Positions 39,724 to 48,012 of a DNA stretch of 64,000 nt are shown here, piece after piece; position 1 is the stretch's first letter, and every line of letters starts with the position of its first letter. The notes beneath the pieces were generated by a model. That model was given only the letters and a program-made list of their open reading frames with translations. It was not told the DNA's origin and did no database searches. Origin of the DNA: Candidatus Uhrbacteria bacterium. Its GTDB lineage: Bacteria > Patescibacteriota > Patescibacteriia > 2-12-FULL-60-25. The DNA lies in NCBI GenBank assembly GCA_020854265.1, contig JADZFU010000004.1, forward strand, positions 124,001-188,000, written 5' to 3'. Made by a program: the position numbers and the translations under genes.

Positions 39724-40299
39724 ATGAACCAACTCGTTGACCACTATCTTCTCTATCGTGTACGCGCCAAGCGCGACGCGGAGGCTTTTGGGCGTTTATA
39801 TGACCAGTATGTCACTTCGATATACCGGTTTGTTTATTTAAAAGTCCCTACGCGTGAAATTGCCGAAGATGTCACATCCGAGACTTTCCTGCGTTTTTGG
39901 CAGGCGGTGCTTGATTCTCAAGATATTCTTAATATCCGCGCTTATCTATATAGAATTGCCCGCAATCTCGTTGTCGATTATTACCGCAAACAAGAATCAA
40001 CCGAGCCCATTTCCGGAAGTGTAACGTTTTCGGATGAAAATACGTCTACTGATCATGAAGGCGAATTGTCCGATCGATCACGCCATGTGCGCTTGATCGA
40101 GGCTCGGGCAGATCTCCAAATCGTACTTGATCGGATCGGCCGGCTTAAAGAGGATTATCAAGATGTCCTTAAGCTTAGACTGATTGACGGCCTCGCATTT
40201 GGTGATATCGCCAAAATTATCGGTAAGTCGGCTGGAAATGTCCGCGTGATTTATCACCGCGCATTGAAAGCCTTGGATGCCCTCGACCCTACTCCATGA
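39724..40299 (+). CDS. ECF-type RNA polymerase sigma factor
   Basis: 191 residues. Region 2: FGRLYDQYVTSIYRFVYLKV, EDVTSETFLRFWQAV and IRAYLYRIARNLVVDYYRK. Region 4: DYQDVLKLRLIDGLAFGDIA and the HTH KSAGNVRVIYHRALKAL. It is distinct from the sigma at 13680. The stop overlaps the DUF5667 membrane protein by four bases, so the latter is the likely partner. The S-layer candidate gene follows that pair, which makes it a possible target. Confidence 0.93.
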   Translation: MNQLVDHYLLYRVRAKRDAEAFGRLYDQYVTSIYRFVYLKVPTREIAEDVTSETFLRFWQAVLDSQDILNIRAYLYRIARNLVVDYYRKQESTEPISGSVTFSDENTSTDHEGELSDRSRHVRLIEARADLQIVLDRIGRLKEDYQDVLKLRLIDGLAFGDIAKIIGKSAGNVRVIYHRALKALDALDPTP

Positions 40300-41417
40300 A
40301 CAAGCGCGATCTCCTGCAGAAACTTGCATCCGTCCGATCGACGGAGCGCGGAATCGTGCCTGACCAGGCTTGGGTTGCGCGTACCCGTGAGACGCTTTTG
40401 ATGCAGGTACGTAATAGCGCTTCCACGGCTCCTGTCCGCAGCCAGCGCCAAGCCAAGATCGCCGTCCAGCATTTCATTCCGGAAAAACTCATGAACTTGC
40501 TCCGCGCTCCGGCTTTGGCCATGTCGGCGGTATTGATGGCGGTACTCGGCGGTTCCATTGCTAGTGTAAATGCTTCCGAGCGCTCGGTGCCCGGTGATTT
40601 CTTGTATCCGATCAAAATTGCATCCGAGCAGACCCGTTTGGCTCTTGTGTCCGATAAAAGCGATAAACTTAAATTGAAAACCGAGTTTGTCGAGCGCCGC
40701 GTCCAAGAAATCAAATCCATCGCAACCGCCGTTGAAAAAAAACCGGCCTTGCTCAAAGAAGCTGCTGCAGGACTCAAGCGCGATTTGGATACCGTGAAGC
40801 AGCAGCTTGCAGATGTGAATAAAAACGAATTGCCCGCCGATGCCGCCCAAGCTGCCAAGCTTGTCGATCAAAAAACCGAGGCTATTGTCAATGAGCTCAA
40901 GCAGGTCAAGAGCGAGATTTCATCCGAGGCAGGATCCTCGCTCTCCGAGGTCGAGGCGGCTGCCGTCCATACCGGAGTTACCGCTATCGAGGTGCTTCTC
41001 CAGACAAAAAATAATCCGGATGCCCAGAGCGTTGTTTCCGAGGCGGATGTTCTCCAATCCATTACAAATAAAGTTGCCAGCTTGCAGAACACGCTCGACA
41101 TCACGGCGCAAAAACTCCAATCCTTGTCTTCATCGACAACGCAATCAACATCATCGTCTTCGGTTCCCGAGATTTTGATGGCAAGCACCACGCTCGAGCA
41201 GGCAAAAACCTTGGTGAGCGAAAACAAGCTCGATCAAGTATCTGACAAGTTGATCGAGGCCGCCAAAACCACGGCGCAGGCAGAGGCCTCGGTAAACCAG
41301 CTCGCCGCATCCAGCACGAGCGCGATTGTTCCTATTCCCGAGCCGGTATCCGAGACATCAACAACTCCGGTTGTTGAGGTCCCATCATCAACTACGGCTA
41401 CCACAACTCCGCCGTAA
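40296..41417 (+). CDS. DUF5667 membrane protein, candidate anti-sigma
   Basis: 373 residues. A cytoplasmic N-terminus (1-65) precedes one membrane segment (about 70-90, PALAMSAVLMAVLGG). Right after it comes the DUF5667 signature SVPGDFLYPIKIASEQTRLA with LKTEFVERRVQEI. The remainder is a long extracytoplasmic coiled-coil region and a Ser/Thr/Pro-rich tail. DUF5667 proteins are often encoded after ECF sigma genes. The four-base overlap suggests a sigma/anti-sigma pair sensing the cell surface; this is inferred. Confidence 0.85.
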   Translation: MNKRDLLQKLASVRSTERGIVPDQAWVARTRETLLMQVRNSASTAPVRSQRQAKIAVQHFIPEKLMNLLRAPALAMSAVLMAVLGGSIASVNASERSVPGDFLYPIKIASEQTRLALVSDKSDKLKLKTEFVERRVQEIKSIATAVEKKPALLKEAAAGLKRDLDTVKQQLADVNKNELPADAAQAAKLVDQKTEAIVNELKQVKSEISSEAGSSLSEVEAAAVHTGVTAIEVLLQTKNNPDAQSVVSEADVLQSITNKVASLQNTLDITAQKLQSLSSSTTQSTSSSSVPEILMASTTLEQAKTLVSENKLDQVSDKLIEAAKTTAQAEASVNQLAASSTSAIVPIPEPVSETSTTPVVEVPSSTTATTTPP

Positions 41418-41429
41418 ACAAGACATGAC

Positions 41430-41509
41430 GTTCTCCCTCGACCAGGGCGACGCTGTCTTTATCCGCTACGGCGGACAAGCGGCAGAGCCGTCCTGACGAG
41501 CGGGAGAAC
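41430..41509 (+). ncRNA. Candidate structured RNA in the S-layer leader
   Basis: The transcript can form one long branched-free stem: GUUCUCCC (41430-41437) with GGGAGAAC (41502-41509), UCG with CGA (41438-41440/41497-41499), AGGGCG (41444-41449) with CGUCCU (41489-41494, one G-U), CUGUC (41453-41457) with GGCAG (41481-41485, one G-U), and a tip UCCGC-UACG-GCGGA (41462-41475) with a UNCG-type tetraloop. It begins 13 bases after the DUF5667 stop. No T run follows, so it is not a plain terminator. It may be a 5'-UTR element, processing signal or small RNA. The fold was made by hand. Confidence 0.5.
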
Positions 41510-41649
41510 CTCCAACGAGGTCCACCCTTTCGCTCGCGCTCGATTCCAACTCGATCCCGGTACTAAAGGTCGAATTCCGATCTAATGTCGGATTGCCGGG
41601 TATCTCTATTCAGACCAACACTTCTGTTCCCGAGGATTCTCACGGATTC

Positions 41650-41681
41650 GGAGGAACACAAAAACCCGCAAGGGTTACATT
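41650..41681 (+). promoter_or_regulatory. Ribosome-binding region with hairpin before the S-layer gene
   Basis: GGAGGA (41650-41655) lies 26 bases before the ATG, too far for direct use. Between them a small hairpin AACCC-GCAA-GGGTT (41663-41676) would bring the two to about 12 bases when folded. The stretch 41510-41649 is otherwise without a gene I can support. Confidence 0.35.
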
Positions 41682-44600
41682 ATGAGCAATATCTTTAAGA
41701 AAATTTTCTCAGGTTTCGTCAGCTTGACGACCATTGCATGGTCCGTCGGTTTCGGAACGTTCGTCGCTCTCCCCAGCGTCGCGTCCGCAGCTACCCCTGG
41801 CGAACTGATCAAGGCTTCAACCCCGGCAGTGTATTACTTCGCTGCTGACGGCAAGCGCTATGTCTTCCCGAATGAGAAGACGTATTTCTCCTGGTACAAT
41901 GACTTCTCGTCGGTTCGGACCATTTCCGACGCAGAACTCGCTTCGTACTTGATCGGTGGTAACGTTACCATCCGCCCTGGTACCAAGCTCGTGAAGATCA
42001 CGACCGATCCGAAGGTGTACGCTCCGTCCCACGACGGCGTCTTGCACTGGATCGAATCCGAATCCGTCGCTACGGCACTCTACGGAGCCTCATGGGCTTC
42101 GCGCGTCGTTGACGTACCGGACGTATTCTTCATCAACTACTCGATCGGTTCCTCGCTCTCGTCCCCGGTTCACCCGGACGGTACGGTCGTCTCCATGGGA
42201 GGCAGCCGCTACGTCGTGACTGGTGGCATGAAGCGCATGATCGCATCGGACTCGGTGTTCGCCTCGAACGGCTACAACACCTCGAACGTTATCTCCACCT
42301 CGGTGTCCTACCCGAATGGTGCTGACGTGACGGGTCGCGAAGGCCGCTTGGCTGATCCGATCTACATCGGTAGCGTCGCTGTCGGCGGTAACCTCACGGT
42401 TGCCCTCGCTTCAGACACGCCGGCTGGTGTGACCGTCCCGAAGGGTGCTTCGAGCGTTATGCTTTCGAAGTTCAACTTCACGGCCGGCTCTGCCGCTGCG
42501 ACGATCGCTGGTCTTACCATCCGCCGCGTTGGCGTTGGTGCGACCTCCGATTTCTCGAATGTCTACCTTTACAAGGCTGACGGTACGCGTTTGACCACGG
42601 GCCGCACGATCAATTCGTCCTCGAATCTCGTGTCGTTCAACAGCTTGAATCTCGTGATTCCGGCCGGTCAGACCATGTCCCTCATGCTCGTTGGTGACAT
42701 CAACCCGTCCGTAACGACCACCGGTGGTCAGCACGCCTTCGAAGTTTCGGATGCTGCTTCCACGGTCTTGTCGGCTGCTGGCACGGTTTCCGGTTCGTTC
42801 CCGGTACGTGGCAACACGTTCACCATCGGTACGACGAGCGCTTCGCGTCTCGACGTGCAGAAGGGTTCGACCCCGAGCAACCCGCAAATCGGCTCCGCCG
42901 AAGCGGAAATCTCGAACTTCAAGCTTGTCGCTGGCAACAACGACATTGAAGTCCGCCGCATCACGTTGATCCAGGCCGGTTCGGTTACGAACACGGACTT
43001 GACCAACTTGAAGCTCTACCAGGGCACGACGCTTGTTGCGTCCGCTCCGGTCATGGTTGGCGACAAGATTGTCCTCAACTTCAACCCTCCGTATGTGATC
43101 ACCGATGGCTCCACCCGCACCTTCTCCTTGAAGGCGACGGTTGCCGGCCGCTCGGCTCGCACGATCAAGACCTACGTCGAATACTCGACGGATGTCTACG
43201 CTATTGACACCGAGTTCAACACCGGTGCTCAGGTTTGTGTCGACAGCACTTCACCGTGTGCCGGTACATTCGATGGCAACAGCACGAACTTCATTGAGGT
43301 AACGACCGAAGGCGGTCAGTTCACCACGACCTTCAACGGTCCGGCAGCTTCCAACCTGGCCAAGGGTCAGCAGGATGTTCCGCTCTACAAGTTCGCTCTC
43401 ACGTCGTCTGACAGCGCGATCGAAGTCCGCAAGATGTACTTCGCTATCCAGGGTGCAACCTCGGCCGATGAGGTCAAGGGTGGATCCGGTACCGAATACT
43501 TCCGCGACATCAAGATCAAGAACCTCGACAACGGTCAGGTCCTCATGGGCCCGATCTCCATGCCGAGCACGGTTGCCAACAACGCATCCGACACAGGTGT
43601 CATGACCTTCACGGATTCGTTCACGATCAACCCGGGCCAGACGCTTAACCTCGCGGTTACGGCTGACCTCTCGAACACGGAAGACAACGCCAACGAATTC
43701 TTTGGCGACAACAACAACCAGTACCGCGTTGTTCAGGGTAACGGCACGAACCTCTTTGGCTCGTCCGACCTCCGCATTGTTGAAACGGGTGAATTCCTCC
43801 CGTCCGGCGATGTAGTACCGAACAGCCCGATTACGGGTAACTTCCACACAGTGAAGGCCGCAAGCCTCACGGTGTCCCTTGCTGCCAACCCGACTGCGGG
43901 TACGGCTGTCAAGAAAGAACAGAACATCCCGACTGCTGGATTCGTCTTCTCGGCGGGTTCAGAAAGCGAGATCTTGGTCCGCACGGTCAAACTCACGGGT
44001 CGCGCTGACGTTACCACCACTGGTACGTACGCCCTCGCTGACTTGAACGACGCGATCACGACCTGTTCCCTCTGGAACGGCACGACGCAAGTCGGTACGG
44101 CCCAGAACCCGGATGCCACGACTGGCTCCATGACGATTGACAATGTCAACGTTACGGTTCCGGCAGGTGGTTCGCTTACGCTTGTCGCCAAGTGTACGGC
44201 TGACTCCACGCTTACGAGCTCCGAAGACAAGTTTGCCGTTGGTATCGCCGCCGCAGCTGATGTTACGGCCGACGATCAGGACGACAACTCCGTCACGGCT
44301 TCGCTTAGCGCGAACGTCTCCGGCAATGCCGGCGCAACGCCTTCCTTGGTCCAAACGATCAAGAACGGCGGTATCCTTACCATCGCTACGGACAACCTCC
44401 GCCAGTCGACGATTCTCGTCGCCGGTGGCGATGTCTGGCAGAACTTCGCTCAGTTCAAGGCTACGGCTCAGTTCGAAGCCATGAACCTCGAGCGTCTCAA
44501 CGTCACCTCCACGGGTGAATCCGCGAACTTCTCGCAGATTGCTGTTGCCATGGATGGTTCGCCGAAGGGTATGGAAACCCTCTCGTCGGGCTTCTCCGGT

Positions 44601-45575
44601 AACAAGGACGTTGATATTACGTCCTCGCCGATCATGGTTCCGAAAGATGGTTCGGTCACCTTCCAGCTGTGGGGCAAGCTCGGTCCTGTCCAGGCTTCCT
44701 CGACGGTTAGCGGTGCAACGACGGGCGCAGCCCGCTCGGGTGCTCGCGTACGTCTCGGTCTCGGTGCAAACCTCCAGACCGGCAACTGGGATGCCAACTA
44801 CGCAGGCATGTTCAATGTCCGCGCAGTCGGTCAGGCCTCTGGTGATATCGTCTACTCGACTGGCGTAGCCACGACGGGTAACGAATTCGTCATCCGCAAG
44901 TCGAAGCCGACGGTCACCCGTCAGACGCTTTCGACCACGACGCTCGCCAACGGTACGAACATGGATCTTTACCGCATGCAGATCTCGGCAGACGCTGCCG
45001 GCTCCGTGGCTGTGAAGAAACTCACGTTCGATGTATCGAAGACGGGTTCCACAACGCTTGCCAACTTCCGCGTCCGCAAGGGCTCGTCCGAATTGCCGCT
45101 CAACACCGTCACGATTACTGATGGCGTTGGCGTCGATCTCGAGGCAGGCACCGTACCGGCCGGTACGTCCACGCTCCGCGTTGTCGTCGTATTCGCCGAT
45201 CCTTCCACGGCTAACACCGAGGAAACGATTACTGGTTCCGGTAACGTCTACACGCTTACCGCAACGGTTGCAGGCACGATTGCTAGCGACACGGTTAGTG
45301 TCTCGCCGGCTCGCGACCTCGCAGGTACCATCGTTACGGGTTACATCGATAACGATGCATTCGCCCTCAACGGCACGTCCGTTGTTGGCCCGAACCTTGA
45401 TGCTTCTGGCTCCGGTATCGCCGATGGCGCTGCCGATCAGCCGGGTTCGCTTGTCTGGTCGGATCTTTCCGAAGTTCCGCACTCGTCAGCCGAAGGCGCA
45501 TCTGGTGGTTCTTACGACTGGACGAACGACGTCTTCGTCGAAGACCTCACCCAGGTCCAGACCCTTTCTCGCTAA
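41682..45575 (+). CDS. Probable S-layer/major surface protein
   Basis: 1297 residues. The signal peptide ends near residue 37 (SVASA/A). Residues 46-153 form the domain shared with the beta-helix protein at 15609: YYFAADGKRYVFPN, RPGTKLVKITTDPKVYA, LHWIESE and DVFFINYSIG. A second, weaker copy follows (about 165-235, RYVVTGGMKRMIASDSVF). The rest is Thr/Ser/Gly-rich, made of repeated Ig-like beta domains (many VPAGxTxTL segments). Codons are strongly biased to C-ending, optimal forms, unlike neighbours, as in highly expressed genes. It probably builds the outer surface layer and may be glycosylated by the next locus. Confidence 0.82.
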   Translation: MSNIFKKIFSGFVSLTTIAWSVGFGTFVALPSVASAATPGELIKASTPAVYYFAADGKRYVFPNEKTYFSWYNDFSSVRTISDAELASYLIGGNVTIRPGTKLVKITTDPKVYAPSHDGVLHWIESESVATALYGASWASRVVDVPDVFFINYSIGSSLSSPVHPDGTVVSMGGSRYVVTGGMKRMIASDSVFASNGYNTSNVISTSVSYPNGADVTGREGRLADPIYIGSVAVGGNLTVALASDTPAGVTVPKGASSVMLSKFNFTAGSAAATIAGLTIRRVGVGATSDFSNVYLYKADGTRLTTGRTINSSSNLVSFNSLNLVIPAGQTMSLMLVGDINPSVTTTGGQHAFEVSDAASTVLSAAGTVSGSFPVRGNTFTIGTTSASRLDVQKGSTPSNPQIGSAEAEISNFKLVAGNNDIEVRRITLIQAGSVTNTDLTNLKLYQGTTLVASAPVMVGDKIVLNFNPPYVITDGSTRTFSLKATVAGRSARTIKTYVEYSTDVYAIDTEFNTGAQVCVDSTSPCAGTFDGNSTNFIEVTTEGGQFTTTFNGPAASNLAKGQQDVPLYKFALTSSDSAIEVRKMYFAIQGATSADEVKGGSGTEYFRDIKIKNLDNGQVLMGPISMPSTVANNASDTGVMTFTDSFTINPGQTLNLAVTADLSNTEDNANEFFGDNNNQYRVVQGNGTNLFGSSDLRIVETGEFLPSGDVVPNSPITGNFHTVKAASLTVSLAANPTAGTAVKKEQNIPTAGFVFSAGSESEILVRTVKLTGRADVTTTGTYALADLNDAITTCSLWNGTTQVGTAQNPDATTGSMTIDNVNVTVPAGGSLTLVAKCTADSTLTSSEDKFAVGIAAAADVTADDQDDNSVTASLSANVSGNAGATPSLVQTIKNGGILTIATDNLRQSTILVAGGDVWQNFAQFKATAQFEAMNLERLNVTSTGESANFSQIAVAMDGSPKGMETLSSGFSGNKDVDITSSPIMVPKDGSVTFQLWGKLGPVQASSTVSGATTGAARSGARVRLGLGANLQTGNWDANYAGMFNVRAVGQASGDIVYSTGVATTGNEFVIRKSKPTVTRQTLSTTTLANGTNMDLYRMQISADAAGSVAVKKLTFDVSKTGSTTLANFRVRKGSSELPLNTVTITDGVGVDLEAGTVPAGTSTLRVVVVFADPSTANTEETITGSGNVYTLTATVAGTIASDTVSVSPARDLAGTIVTGYIDNDAFALNGTSVVGPNLDASGSGIADGAADQPGSLVWSDLSEVPHSSAEGASGGSYDWTNDVFVEDLTQVQTLSR

Positions 45576-45601: not shown

Positions 45602-45629
45602 AAACCCCCCGCAAGGGGGGTTTTGGTTT
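45602..45629 (+). terminator. Terminator of the S-layer gene
   Basis: A 9-bp stem AAACCCCCC-GCAA-GGGGGGTTT (45602-45623) followed by a T-rich run. Confidence 0.9.
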
Positions 45630-45660
45630 TGTATTTATGCTATGCTGGGGGCCAATCAAT

Positions 45661-48012
45661 ATGACTCGCTCACAAGCCATCAAGTTTTTTAAGTGGATTG
45701 CCCTGATCGGGATTTATGGCGGACTTTTGGTGCCGCTGATGTTTATCCCAGTGGTTATTTTTCCCTTCGTCTTTTCCAAGCTGATTTATTTCCAAATTCT
45801 TGTTGGTTTAACTTTTCCGGCATATCTGGCTTTGGCCTGGATGGAGCCCAAATATCGTCCAAAAAAGCATCTTTTATACTTTGCGATTTTGGCGTATTTC
45901 GTGGCGCTGGCATTATCCGTCATATTTGCGGTCGATCCGGCTCGTGCATGGTGGGGGAATCAAGAACGCATGAATGGCCTGTTTACGCTTCTCCATTTCT
46001 TTGCGTGGATGACCATGGCTACGGGTGTTTTGCAGAAATGGGATGATTGGAAGAAATTGCTGATTTACGAAGTCTGTTTGTCCGGAATCATGGCCATAGT
46101 CGCCATCATGCAAAAATTGAATCCGAACCTGCTCTTGTTTACGGCTGGAGGCCGTGTCGGCGGATTGGTCGATAATCCGATTTACATGGCGGCATACCAG
46201 ATCTTCAACTTCTTCTTTTTGGCTCTCTTGTTTTGGAAAATCCAATCAAATAAATGGCGCGCGTTTTTTGCCGTCATTTTTGCGTTGGACATGGTGGCAT
46301 TTCTGCTCGCGGCATCGCGCGGCGCCTTGGTCGGTTTGGCTGCCGGACTTTTGGCATTTGCGATTTACGTCAGTATTTTCAGCAAATCAAAAAAAGTCCG
46401 CTTTTCGATTTTCGGTGCCTTGCTCATTTTAGCCGGAAGCTACGGTTTGCTGTATGCGGCCCGCGAAACCCCGCTCATCAAGGGGTCGCCGGTGTATCGT
46501 TTGACGGATTTGAGCACGACGGTCAGTACGCGTCTCATCGCATGGGAGATTGCATGGGAGGGCTTCCTCGAGCGTCCGCTTACCGGATGGGGATTGGATA
46601 ATTTCCACATTCTGTTCAACAACAAATACAATCCGGTTTCCCTGCGTTTTGGTACGTACGAAACCTGGTTTGACCGCGCCCACAATACGGTCATGGACGT
46701 GCTTGCGATGACGGGTATTGCTGGATTTGTGACATTCTTTTCGATTTTTGTGGCGGTATTCCTGTCCTCGATCAAGGCATTCAGGAAAGGCTGGATTGAC
46801 CTTCCGATTGCGGCGATCTTGTTCTCTCTTCCGATTGCCTATTTCGTCCAAAATTTATTCGTGTTTGACCATCCGGCAGGGTTCTCGATGAGTTATCTGC
46901 TATATGCACTCATTATTGCCGCGACGCGAGGAGAGTTTGTCGGCGATATCTCCAAAGAAGAAGTAAAAGCCGAGACCGAAGCGCGGGCTGATGCACCGTG
47001 GACGGCCTTTGTCGTCTTGCAGGTGGTGATGGCTTTGGTTGTCTGGCGAACGTCGGTATTGCCGTTCCAAGCATCGAGAATCTCGCTCCAGTCGAATGCC
47101 GTTATCATGTCGAATCCGACTATCGGTTTTGCATTGGCAAAACAGGCATCGGAAATTCCTACCATGTATATCGATGAGCAATCATTCTTGCTGTCGCGTA
47201 ATTTGATTGCCATGTACGCAAACGGAGTCCTGCAAAAAATTCCCAATTGGCAGGAAATGTATGCATTGGCGAAAAAATTATCCGAAGAAGAGATCAGCCG
47301 GCATCCACGCAATACCCATCCAAAATTCATTTATGCCCGCATGGCACAGGAGATCATGATGCTGCAGCCGAGCGAAGCTCCGGTTGCCGAGATCCAATAC
47401 AAGGCGGCAATTGAAACCAGTCCCAAACGCCAACAGCTCCATTACGGACTTGCTCGTCTTTATCTCCAAACGGGAAATCTTGATCCGGCGATCACGGTGT
47501 TCCGCAATGTTGCAGAATTCGATCCGGAAAATGGCGAGCCGTTCTGGAATCTTGGTCTGACGCTTTTCTACGATAAAAAAGCGTTCCAAGAGGGCGCCGA
47601 GTATATCCAAAAATCACAGACGGTTAAATTCAAGTACCGGATGTTGTCGGCTCGCGAGTACGTGCCGCTCGTCGAGGCTCTGCTTTTCTTGAATGATGAA
47701 GCCTTGATCAAAGAATTCATCGCCAAGCTTGCTGATCCCGAATACTACATCCCGGGTACGGCCGATGTGTATGCGCAAATCGCATACCGTTTACAACAGA
47801 CAAACAAAATCGAGCTTCGCGACCAACTTTTGGCTGAAGCGGTCAAGGTTGATCCGAAAACGGTAGACGTGTTTAATGCGCTGCTCACGCAAGCCTCGGC
47901 TGTGCCCGAGACAATGCCAGCTGCAGCCGCGCCTGTACCTGCACCGGTCGCTGTACCATCCGTGCCGGTTGCAACGAATACCGTCCCATCATCGGGCGGT
48001 CCACGGCGTTAG
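45661..48012 (+). CDS. O-antigen-ligase-type glycosyltransferase with TPRs
   Basis: 783 residues from the ATG at 45661, 14 bases after a TATGCT box. About 12 membrane segments fill 1-450. The Wzy_C/WaaL core is visible: SRGALVGLAAGLLAF, GLDNFHILF and the loop with FDRAHNTVMDVLAMTGIAGF. Residues about 540-740 are TPR-like helices (HYGLARLYLQTGNLDPAITV; WNLGLTLFYDKKAF). The tail is Ala/Pro/Val-rich. Such enzymes transfer lipid-linked glycans to lipid or, as PglL/PilO types, to protein. Its place right after the S-layer gene suggests protein glycosylation. Confidence 0.87.
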   Translation: MTRSQAIKFFKWIALIGIYGGLLVPLMFIPVVIFPFVFSKLIYFQILVGLTFPAYLALAWMEPKYRPKKHLLYFAILAYFVALALSVIFAVDPARAWWGNQERMNGLFTLLHFFAWMTMATGVLQKWDDWKKLLIYEVCLSGIMAIVAIMQKLNPNLLLFTAGGRVGGLVDNPIYMAAYQIFNFFFLALLFWKIQSNKWRAFFAVIFALDMVAFLLAASRGALVGLAAGLLAFAIYVSIFSKSKKVRFSIFGALLILAGSYGLLYAARETPLIKGSPVYRLTDLSTTVSTRLIAWEIAWEGFLERPLTGWGLDNFHILFNNKYNPVSLRFGTYETWFDRAHNTVMDVLAMTGIAGFVTFFSIFVAVFLSSIKAFRKGWIDLPIAAILFSLPIAYFVQNLFVFDHPAGFSMSYLLYALIIAATRGEFVGDISKEEVKAETEARADAPWTAFVVLQVVMALVVWRTSVLPFQASRISLQSNAVIMSNPTIGFALAKQASEIPTMYIDEQSFLLSRNLIAMYANGVLQKIPNWQEMYALAKKLSEEEISRHPRNTHPKFIYARMAQEIMMLQPSEAPVAEIQYKAAIETSPKRQQLHYGLARLYLQTGNLDPAITVFRNVAEFDPENGEPFWNLGLTLFYDKKAFQEGAEYIQKSQTVKFKYRMLSAREYVPLVEALLFLNDEALIKEFIAKLADPEYYIPGTADVYAQIAYRLQQTNKIELRDQLLAEAVKVDPKTVDVFNALLTQASAVPETMPAAAAPVPAPVAVPSVPVATNTVPSSGGPRR

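Follow-up and report, generated by a model that had tools for sequence, protein, structure and literature searches.

A class-wide AAGGUCG-bulge hairpin in the structured leader of a putative S-layer gene of Patescibacteria

Introduction

What is the function of a 264-nt gap that precedes a large gene for an exported protein? The gap (41418-41681, + strand) lies in a window of 64,000 nucleotides (contig C4:124001-188000) taken from a Candidatus Uhrbacteria genome of about 1.0 Mb, and it separates a DUF5667 protein gene from a putative S-layer gene. The lineage is presumably an ABY1-type branch of the Patescibacteria (CPR), an assignment that we draw from the names of its relatives and from background knowledge. 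Patescibacteria are mostly uncultured, and to our knowledge almost nothing is known about their gene regulation. An earlier note, made from the letters of the window, had read the gap as a strongly structured leader with an 80-base stem, of the kind known to protect long-lived S-layer mRNAs. Here we describe the structure of this leader, its conservation among related genomes and the regulatory role that it may have.

Results

The leader belongs to a conserved locus

All window features described below are on the + strand. The conserved locus begins with an ECF-type sigma factor gene (39724-40299; Pfam Sigma70_r2/r4_2, NCBIfam sigma70-ECF), which overlaps by 4 nt the gene for the DUF5667 protein (40296-41417; Pfam DUF5667, 4e-9). 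The DUF5667 protein has an apparent membrane-spanning segment and is possibly an anti-sigma factor or sensor. Following the gap is the putative S-layer gene (41682-45575), which encodes an exported protein of 1297 amino acids; a consensus scan placed an intrinsic-terminator-like hairpin behind it (45602-45623), which would end the S-layer transcript, and its downstream neighbor encodes an O-antigen-ligase/TPR membrane protein (45637-48012; Pfam Wzy_C, TPR).

No database that we searched names the 1297-residue product, as Pfam returned a sub-threshold fn3_5 match only and neither the PDB nor NCBIfam returned a match. Its large size, its export, its presence in 55 of 57 relatives and the O-antigen-ligase-type gene that often lies downstream (37 of the 56 loci with enough flank) lead us to infer that it is an S-layer protein. 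The near relatives that have names are Candidatus Uhrbacteria, and the farther ones with this gene include Falkowbacteria, Kerfeldbacteria and Kuenenbacteria. Its N-terminal domain (residues ~27-163) recurs in several other proteins of ~180-600 amino acids per genome, as was noticed for many of the loci. The sequence of 69 loci extended 2.5 kb or more upstream; in all 69, an ECF sigma gene was found on the same strand, 1.2-3.0 kb upstream of the S-layer homologue, and in 57 a DUF5667 protein was encoded between the two.

A bulged hairpin forms the conserved core

To define the leader family, we gathered 84 distinct leaders by protein similarity of the downstream gene alone. Within 600 nt upstream of that gene, 82 of them contained AAGGTCG or a one-base variant of it, for which we estimate by arithmetic a chance expectation of ~1/9 per leader; the two leaders without the motif were L088, for which only 165 nt of upstream sequence was available, and L096. 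In the window, the motif lies in the bulge of a hairpin, H2 (41553-41604), with a lower helix P1 (41553-41562 paired with 41594-41604), the bulge (41563-41575; conserved part AAAGGUCG, 41565-41572) and an upper helix P2 (41576-41581 paired with 41587-41592). The layout common to the leaders consists of P1, usually of 8-10 bp, 2-4 nt, AAGGUCG, one purine and P2 of 4-8 bp, which leads directly back into P1; the consensus of the bulge between the two helices is [A/C]AAGGUCG[A/G]. The unpaired TATTCA just 3′ of the core (41607-41612) is conserved in the leader alignment of the Uhrbacteria family. In one leader, L029, P2 has grown to a perfect helix of 20 bp, indicating that the length of P2 is free.

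We then examined the helices in core alignments built from a padded seed with Infernal. In the 41-sequence alignment, all 16 pairs of the model showed two-sided changes, 93.9% of the paired cells could pair as compared with 50.1% for shuffled data and no more than 49% when the alignment was slid, and the covariation score was 1.04 versus 0.24. A 57-sequence alignment, which includes 3 matches that are partial or outside the leader core and that the 41-sequence set leaves out, gave the same covariation picture. The sequence of the helices is thus free as long as pairing, G-U pairs included, is kept. A fixed descriptor that needs no fitted alignment (P2 of at least 4 bp, P1 of at least 7 bp) was matched by 53 of the 82 leaders, as against a mean of 3.2 and a maximum of 9 after shuffling of the flanks, and by only 5 of the 92 AAGGTCG sites found in other parts of these loci. 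Because the helices still pair while their sequence changes, the element is an RNA; at the level of sequence comparison, these results show a core that would act as RNA, is under strong structural constraint and is tied to one gene.

The window copy is a weaker, atypical member of the family. It was matched by the covariance model (R2) at 41556-41600 with 20.8 bits, no other site in that genome matched at E ≤ 0.1, and when it is folded as a single sequence, an alternative local structure of slightly better energy buries part of the bulge. Its structure is decided by the comparative evidence rather than by the single fold. The small TCCGA/TCGGA hairpin (41576-41592) that the earlier note had pointed out is present, but it is only P2, the upper helix of the larger and far more conserved hairpin at 41553-41604.

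The core is mainly a feature of one class

We searched 381 genomes of the class with a covariance model that holds no protein information. This RNA-only search matched 103 genomes (strict filters, 85 genera), nearly always with one copy each. Sixty matches, some of them from training-set genomes, were fetched with their flanks and inspected: 52 stand before an S-layer homologue, and the other eight are at contig ends (two), before genes for other exported proteins (three) or in unclear positions (three). A phylum-wide draw of 380 genomes gave 11 matches, only 3 of which were outside the class, and we therefore consider the core to belong mainly to this class. The leader is single-copy in the genome of the window, which excludes a multicopy element.

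Several other occurrences of the motif deserve mention. Extra cores precede tandem exported-protein genes that share an AFEAHIINVTA segment (two copies in L249, and L260 and L255); such operons occur in genomes G258, G245 and G401, the last of which is outside the class, and one of them has a VWA domain and another a DUF642 domain. A core also precedes another exported-protein operon, matching between the two genomes, in G024 and G013, which represent two genera of the Uhrbacteria family (L250:214-260 and L259:6234-6279). A look-alike, TTTTGTTTTTNAAAGGTCG, is found before unrelated short genes (L258:3022, L262:1405 and L218 at ~1000) and comes after CAAATCTYTCAGCCG in L258 and L218; it may represent a different element, perhaps one associated with mobile genes. 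Genome G361 has seven identical AAGGTCG hairpins at or near contig ends (L253, L254 and others); the assembly probably breaks at this repeat.

Three further hairpins flank the core in the Uhrbacteria family

In Uhrbacteria leaders, the core is flanked by three more hairpins, H1, H3 and H4. H1 is the ~80-base stem with a UACG loop (41430-41509) that the earlier note had folded by hand, and it is present as described: its outer arms are 41430-41437 and 41502-41509, and its inner hairpin (CAGGG...CCTG) spans 41443-41495. Folded alone, H1 has an energy of -44.1 kcal/mol (z -4.46), and none of 200 shuffled sequences was equally stable; with flanks, z is -5.0, and the energies of the stem lie between -44 and -45 kcal/mol. 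Unusual stability is likewise seen for the whole 273-nt leader (z -3.0). In this whole-leader fold, the 3′ arm of H1 (ACGAGCGGG, 41496-41504) pairs not with the outer 5′ arm but with a downstream segment (TTCGCTCGC, 41529-41537). This pairing, PX (41496-41537), excludes the outer arms of H1 and has an energy of -19.6 kcal/mol on its own; the outer block of H1 is one of two competing pairings.

We compared own with swapped arms in 22 relatives, with arms for H1 and PX chosen by eye. Of 20000 permutations, none was as good for the inner part of H1 and one for its outer part, so that H1 co-varies within the family, the support that the earlier note had asked for in its stems; our arm-swap tests, here and for H3 below, count related species as independent, and their permutation counts are indicative rather than exact probabilities. 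The co-variation of PX was weak (473 of 20000 permutations as good), and we do not regard PX as a proven switch. In the relatives, the PX partner is a C-rich downstream segment that pairs strongly with the H1 3′ arm, and the two competing pairings are near-equal in mean energy (-16.4 and -17.2 kcal/mol). Both H1 and PX are seen in the Uhrbacteria family only, whereas the AAGGUCG core is class-wide. The stem that had been taken for the main element is thus a real structure, but the part shared by the class is the bulged hairpin downstream of it.

Nearer the start codon, H3 (41625-41658) has the form UGUUCC-CGA-GGAUUC-UCAC-GGAUUC-GGA-GGAACA. In 25 relatives, its own arms gave -13.7 kcal/mol as compared with -6.7 kcal/mol for swapped arms, and none of 20000 permutations was as good. 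The GGAGGA that had been noticed earlier (41650-41655) is present and forms part of the 3′ strand of H3, but it is not kept in the relatives, and we reject it as a conserved Shine-Dalgarno sequence. The hairpin noted between the GGAGGA and the ATG is H4 (AACCCGCAAGGGTT, 41663-41676; AACCC-GCAA-GGGUU), which ends 5 nt before the ATG; a hairpin of this type, 3-10 nt upstream of the ATG, recurs in 19 of 31 family leaders, as against a mean of 5.5 and a maximum of 11 in shuffled sequences.

Promoters, terminators and start signals

Of 47 sigma genes from outside the Uhrbacteria family, 32 have TGTAAC-N16/17-CGT or a closely similar sequence, located ~31-82 nt upstream of the ATG. The motif, more fully TGTAAC-N16/17-CGT[CA]T, is an ECF-type promoter that in many cases ends a few bases before the ATG, which suggests autoregulation and a leaderless sigma mRNA. 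The motif was found in only 1 of 47 S-layer leaders, where ~8 were expected, and we therefore rejected an ECF promoter of the S-layer gene's own. Consensus scans showed no enrichment of sigma70-type sites in S-layer leaders. No promoter consensus was enriched downstream of the core, a scan that may miss weak or atypical promoters, and none was enriched downstream of the stem end at 41509, where a promoter, as the earlier note had pointed out, would leave the stem outside the mRNA. A consensus scan of 41418-41681 likewise found no intrinsic terminator with a U-tract on the + strand, and an attenuator or riboswitch that works by intrinsic termination was rejected on this ground.

Among 49 ORFs of the window, only 3 have a Shine-Dalgarno-like sequence, and 8 have TGnTAnnnT beginning exactly 15 nt before the ATG. 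The latter position suggests that leaderless mRNAs may be common in this genome. A structured leader of 264 nt is exceptional against this Shine-Dalgarno-poor, leaderless-type background.

Discussion

The structure described here carries compensatory changes and stands on the same strand before the same gene, as expected for a cis-regulatory leader. We lean towards the view that it represents a new family of cis-acting mRNA leaders, in which the core docks a trans-acting factor that sets the stability or the translation of the S-layer mRNA. The earlier note was right in reading a functional structured leader, as the stems show compensatory changes and have no Rfam match, but it missed the class-wide core and the linkage to the ECF sigma factor and DUF5667. 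Since the leader has no recognizable promoter, the S-layer mRNA is probably, at least in part, the distal part of a sigma/DUF5667 operon transcript, unless it starts from a promoter that our scans do not recognize. H1, directly after the DUF5667 stop codon, could then form the protected 5′ boundary of an abundant and more stable S-layer segment. The factor, most likely an RNA-binding protein, would dock at the invariant bulge and adjust the stability or translation of the mRNA, and H4 beside the AUG may influence how translation begins in this genome, where Shine-Dalgarno sequences are seldom used. Among the leaders, 63 to 509 nt separate the core from the ATG, a spread that disfavors sequestration of the start codon as a shared mechanism; stability, processing or elongation is the more likely shared output.

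A docked factor has to be weighed against other readings of the same leader. The earlier note's own reading was that any strong hairpins shield a long-lived S-layer mRNA from nucleases and that no specific partner is involved. The high stability of H1 towards the 5′ side, the strong hairpins along the whole leader, the presumably very abundant product and the stabilizing S-layer leaders of Lactobacillus all agree with such a role. Generic protection, however, has no need of an invariant bulge amid changing surroundings, and H1 is seen only in the Uhrbacteria family whereas the core is class-wide; we consider this reading unlikely. That the bulge instead binds a small molecule or ion, with the H1 and PX alternatives of the GACGRGCGGG strand as the switch, is brought to mind by the 7-8 unpaired bases strictly conserved between variable helices and by the near-equal competing pairings. 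Yet PX co-varies weakly, H1 and PX are seen in one family only and so cannot be what the core acts through in the class as a whole, the leader has no terminator, a single bulged hairpin offers little room for a metabolite to bind, and surface proteins, rather than transporters or enzymes, are encoded downstream. A ligand-sensing riboswitch is accordingly improbable in our judgment.

Feedback, in which the S-layer protein or another sensor of surface assembly binds the core and represses its own mRNA, would produce the pattern of an autogenous site, namely one element per genome that is nearly always before the S-layer gene, and the linked sigma/DUF5667 pair could sense the envelope. The core also precedes genes of unrelated exported proteins, however, so that a single self-binding protein cannot cover all cases, and the S-layer protein is itself exported; we give this possibility little weight. 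An imperfect palindrome upstream of a gene might also be a DNA-level element, such as a protein-binding inverted repeat or a cruciform, or belong to an independent small RNA. Against this stand the freedom of the helix sequence as long as pairing is kept, G-U pairs included, the constant strand and downstream gene, the co-varying hairpins that run on to the ATG, and the lack of a promoter or terminator of its own, which together make either alternative very improbable.

The earlier note had also remarked that the element resembled no known riboswitch and may be new, and our searches agree. Rfam 15 (4227 families) gave nothing in the window above its curated thresholds except a tRNA, permissive thresholds added, for the leader, nothing but eukaryotic families with sub-threshold scores, and 20 related loci gave no match. 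By eye, we rejected an attC-like site, as the ends GTTCTCCC/GGGAGAAC lack attC polarity, and a T-box-type bulge, as there is no UGGN. S-layer mRNAs of Lactobacillus (slpA) have long structured 5′ leaders that are stabilizing. They share with the leader described here their length, their structure and a position before (putative) S-layer genes, but we know of no invariant bulge common to them and of no ECF-sigma operon upstream. Bulged hairpins that bind proteins are also found in bacterial leaders, for example at the autoregulation sites of ribosomal proteins. These resemble our core in having a short invariant unpaired motif, freely varying helices and one copy per gene; they differ in that none of the 4227 Rfam families matches the core and that the protein partner here is hypothetical. 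We found no S-layer leader RNA of Patescibacteria in the literature searched. The nearest described candidate is the SLH RNA motif of Stav et al. (2019; PMC6429828), a candidate cis-regulatory RNA before S-layer-type genes; it was reported upstream of genes for SLH-domain proteins in Synergistaceae, Clostridia and Negativicutes. It shares with our leader the position upstream of S-layer-type protein genes, but the gene here has no SLH match in Pfam. We regard the leader RNA as an undescribed family of cis-acting mRNA leaders, set apart from the SLH motif by the description of that motif only.

The extra cores before other coat-protein operons raise a broader idea, which we put forward tentatively. 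The AAGGUCG hairpin may mark an RNA regulon of surface proteins throughout Patescibacteria, in which one trans-acting factor or ligand would read the bulge wherever it precedes an S-layer or other coat-protein operon and, with the linked ECF sigma/DUF5667 sensor, would adjust coat production to the condition of the cell surface, in bacteria whose remaining genes mostly have no Shine-Dalgarno sequence.

The gap offers a naturally occurring example of a long structured leader in a genome where Shine-Dalgarno sequences are seldom used, and a covariance model is available for annotating the family. The S-layer is where these tiny cells meet hosts and phages. A single-copy, class-wide RNA with fixed neighbors, namely an ECF sigma factor, usually a DUF5667 protein, and the S-layer gene, offers a testable handle on how they make their main surface protein.
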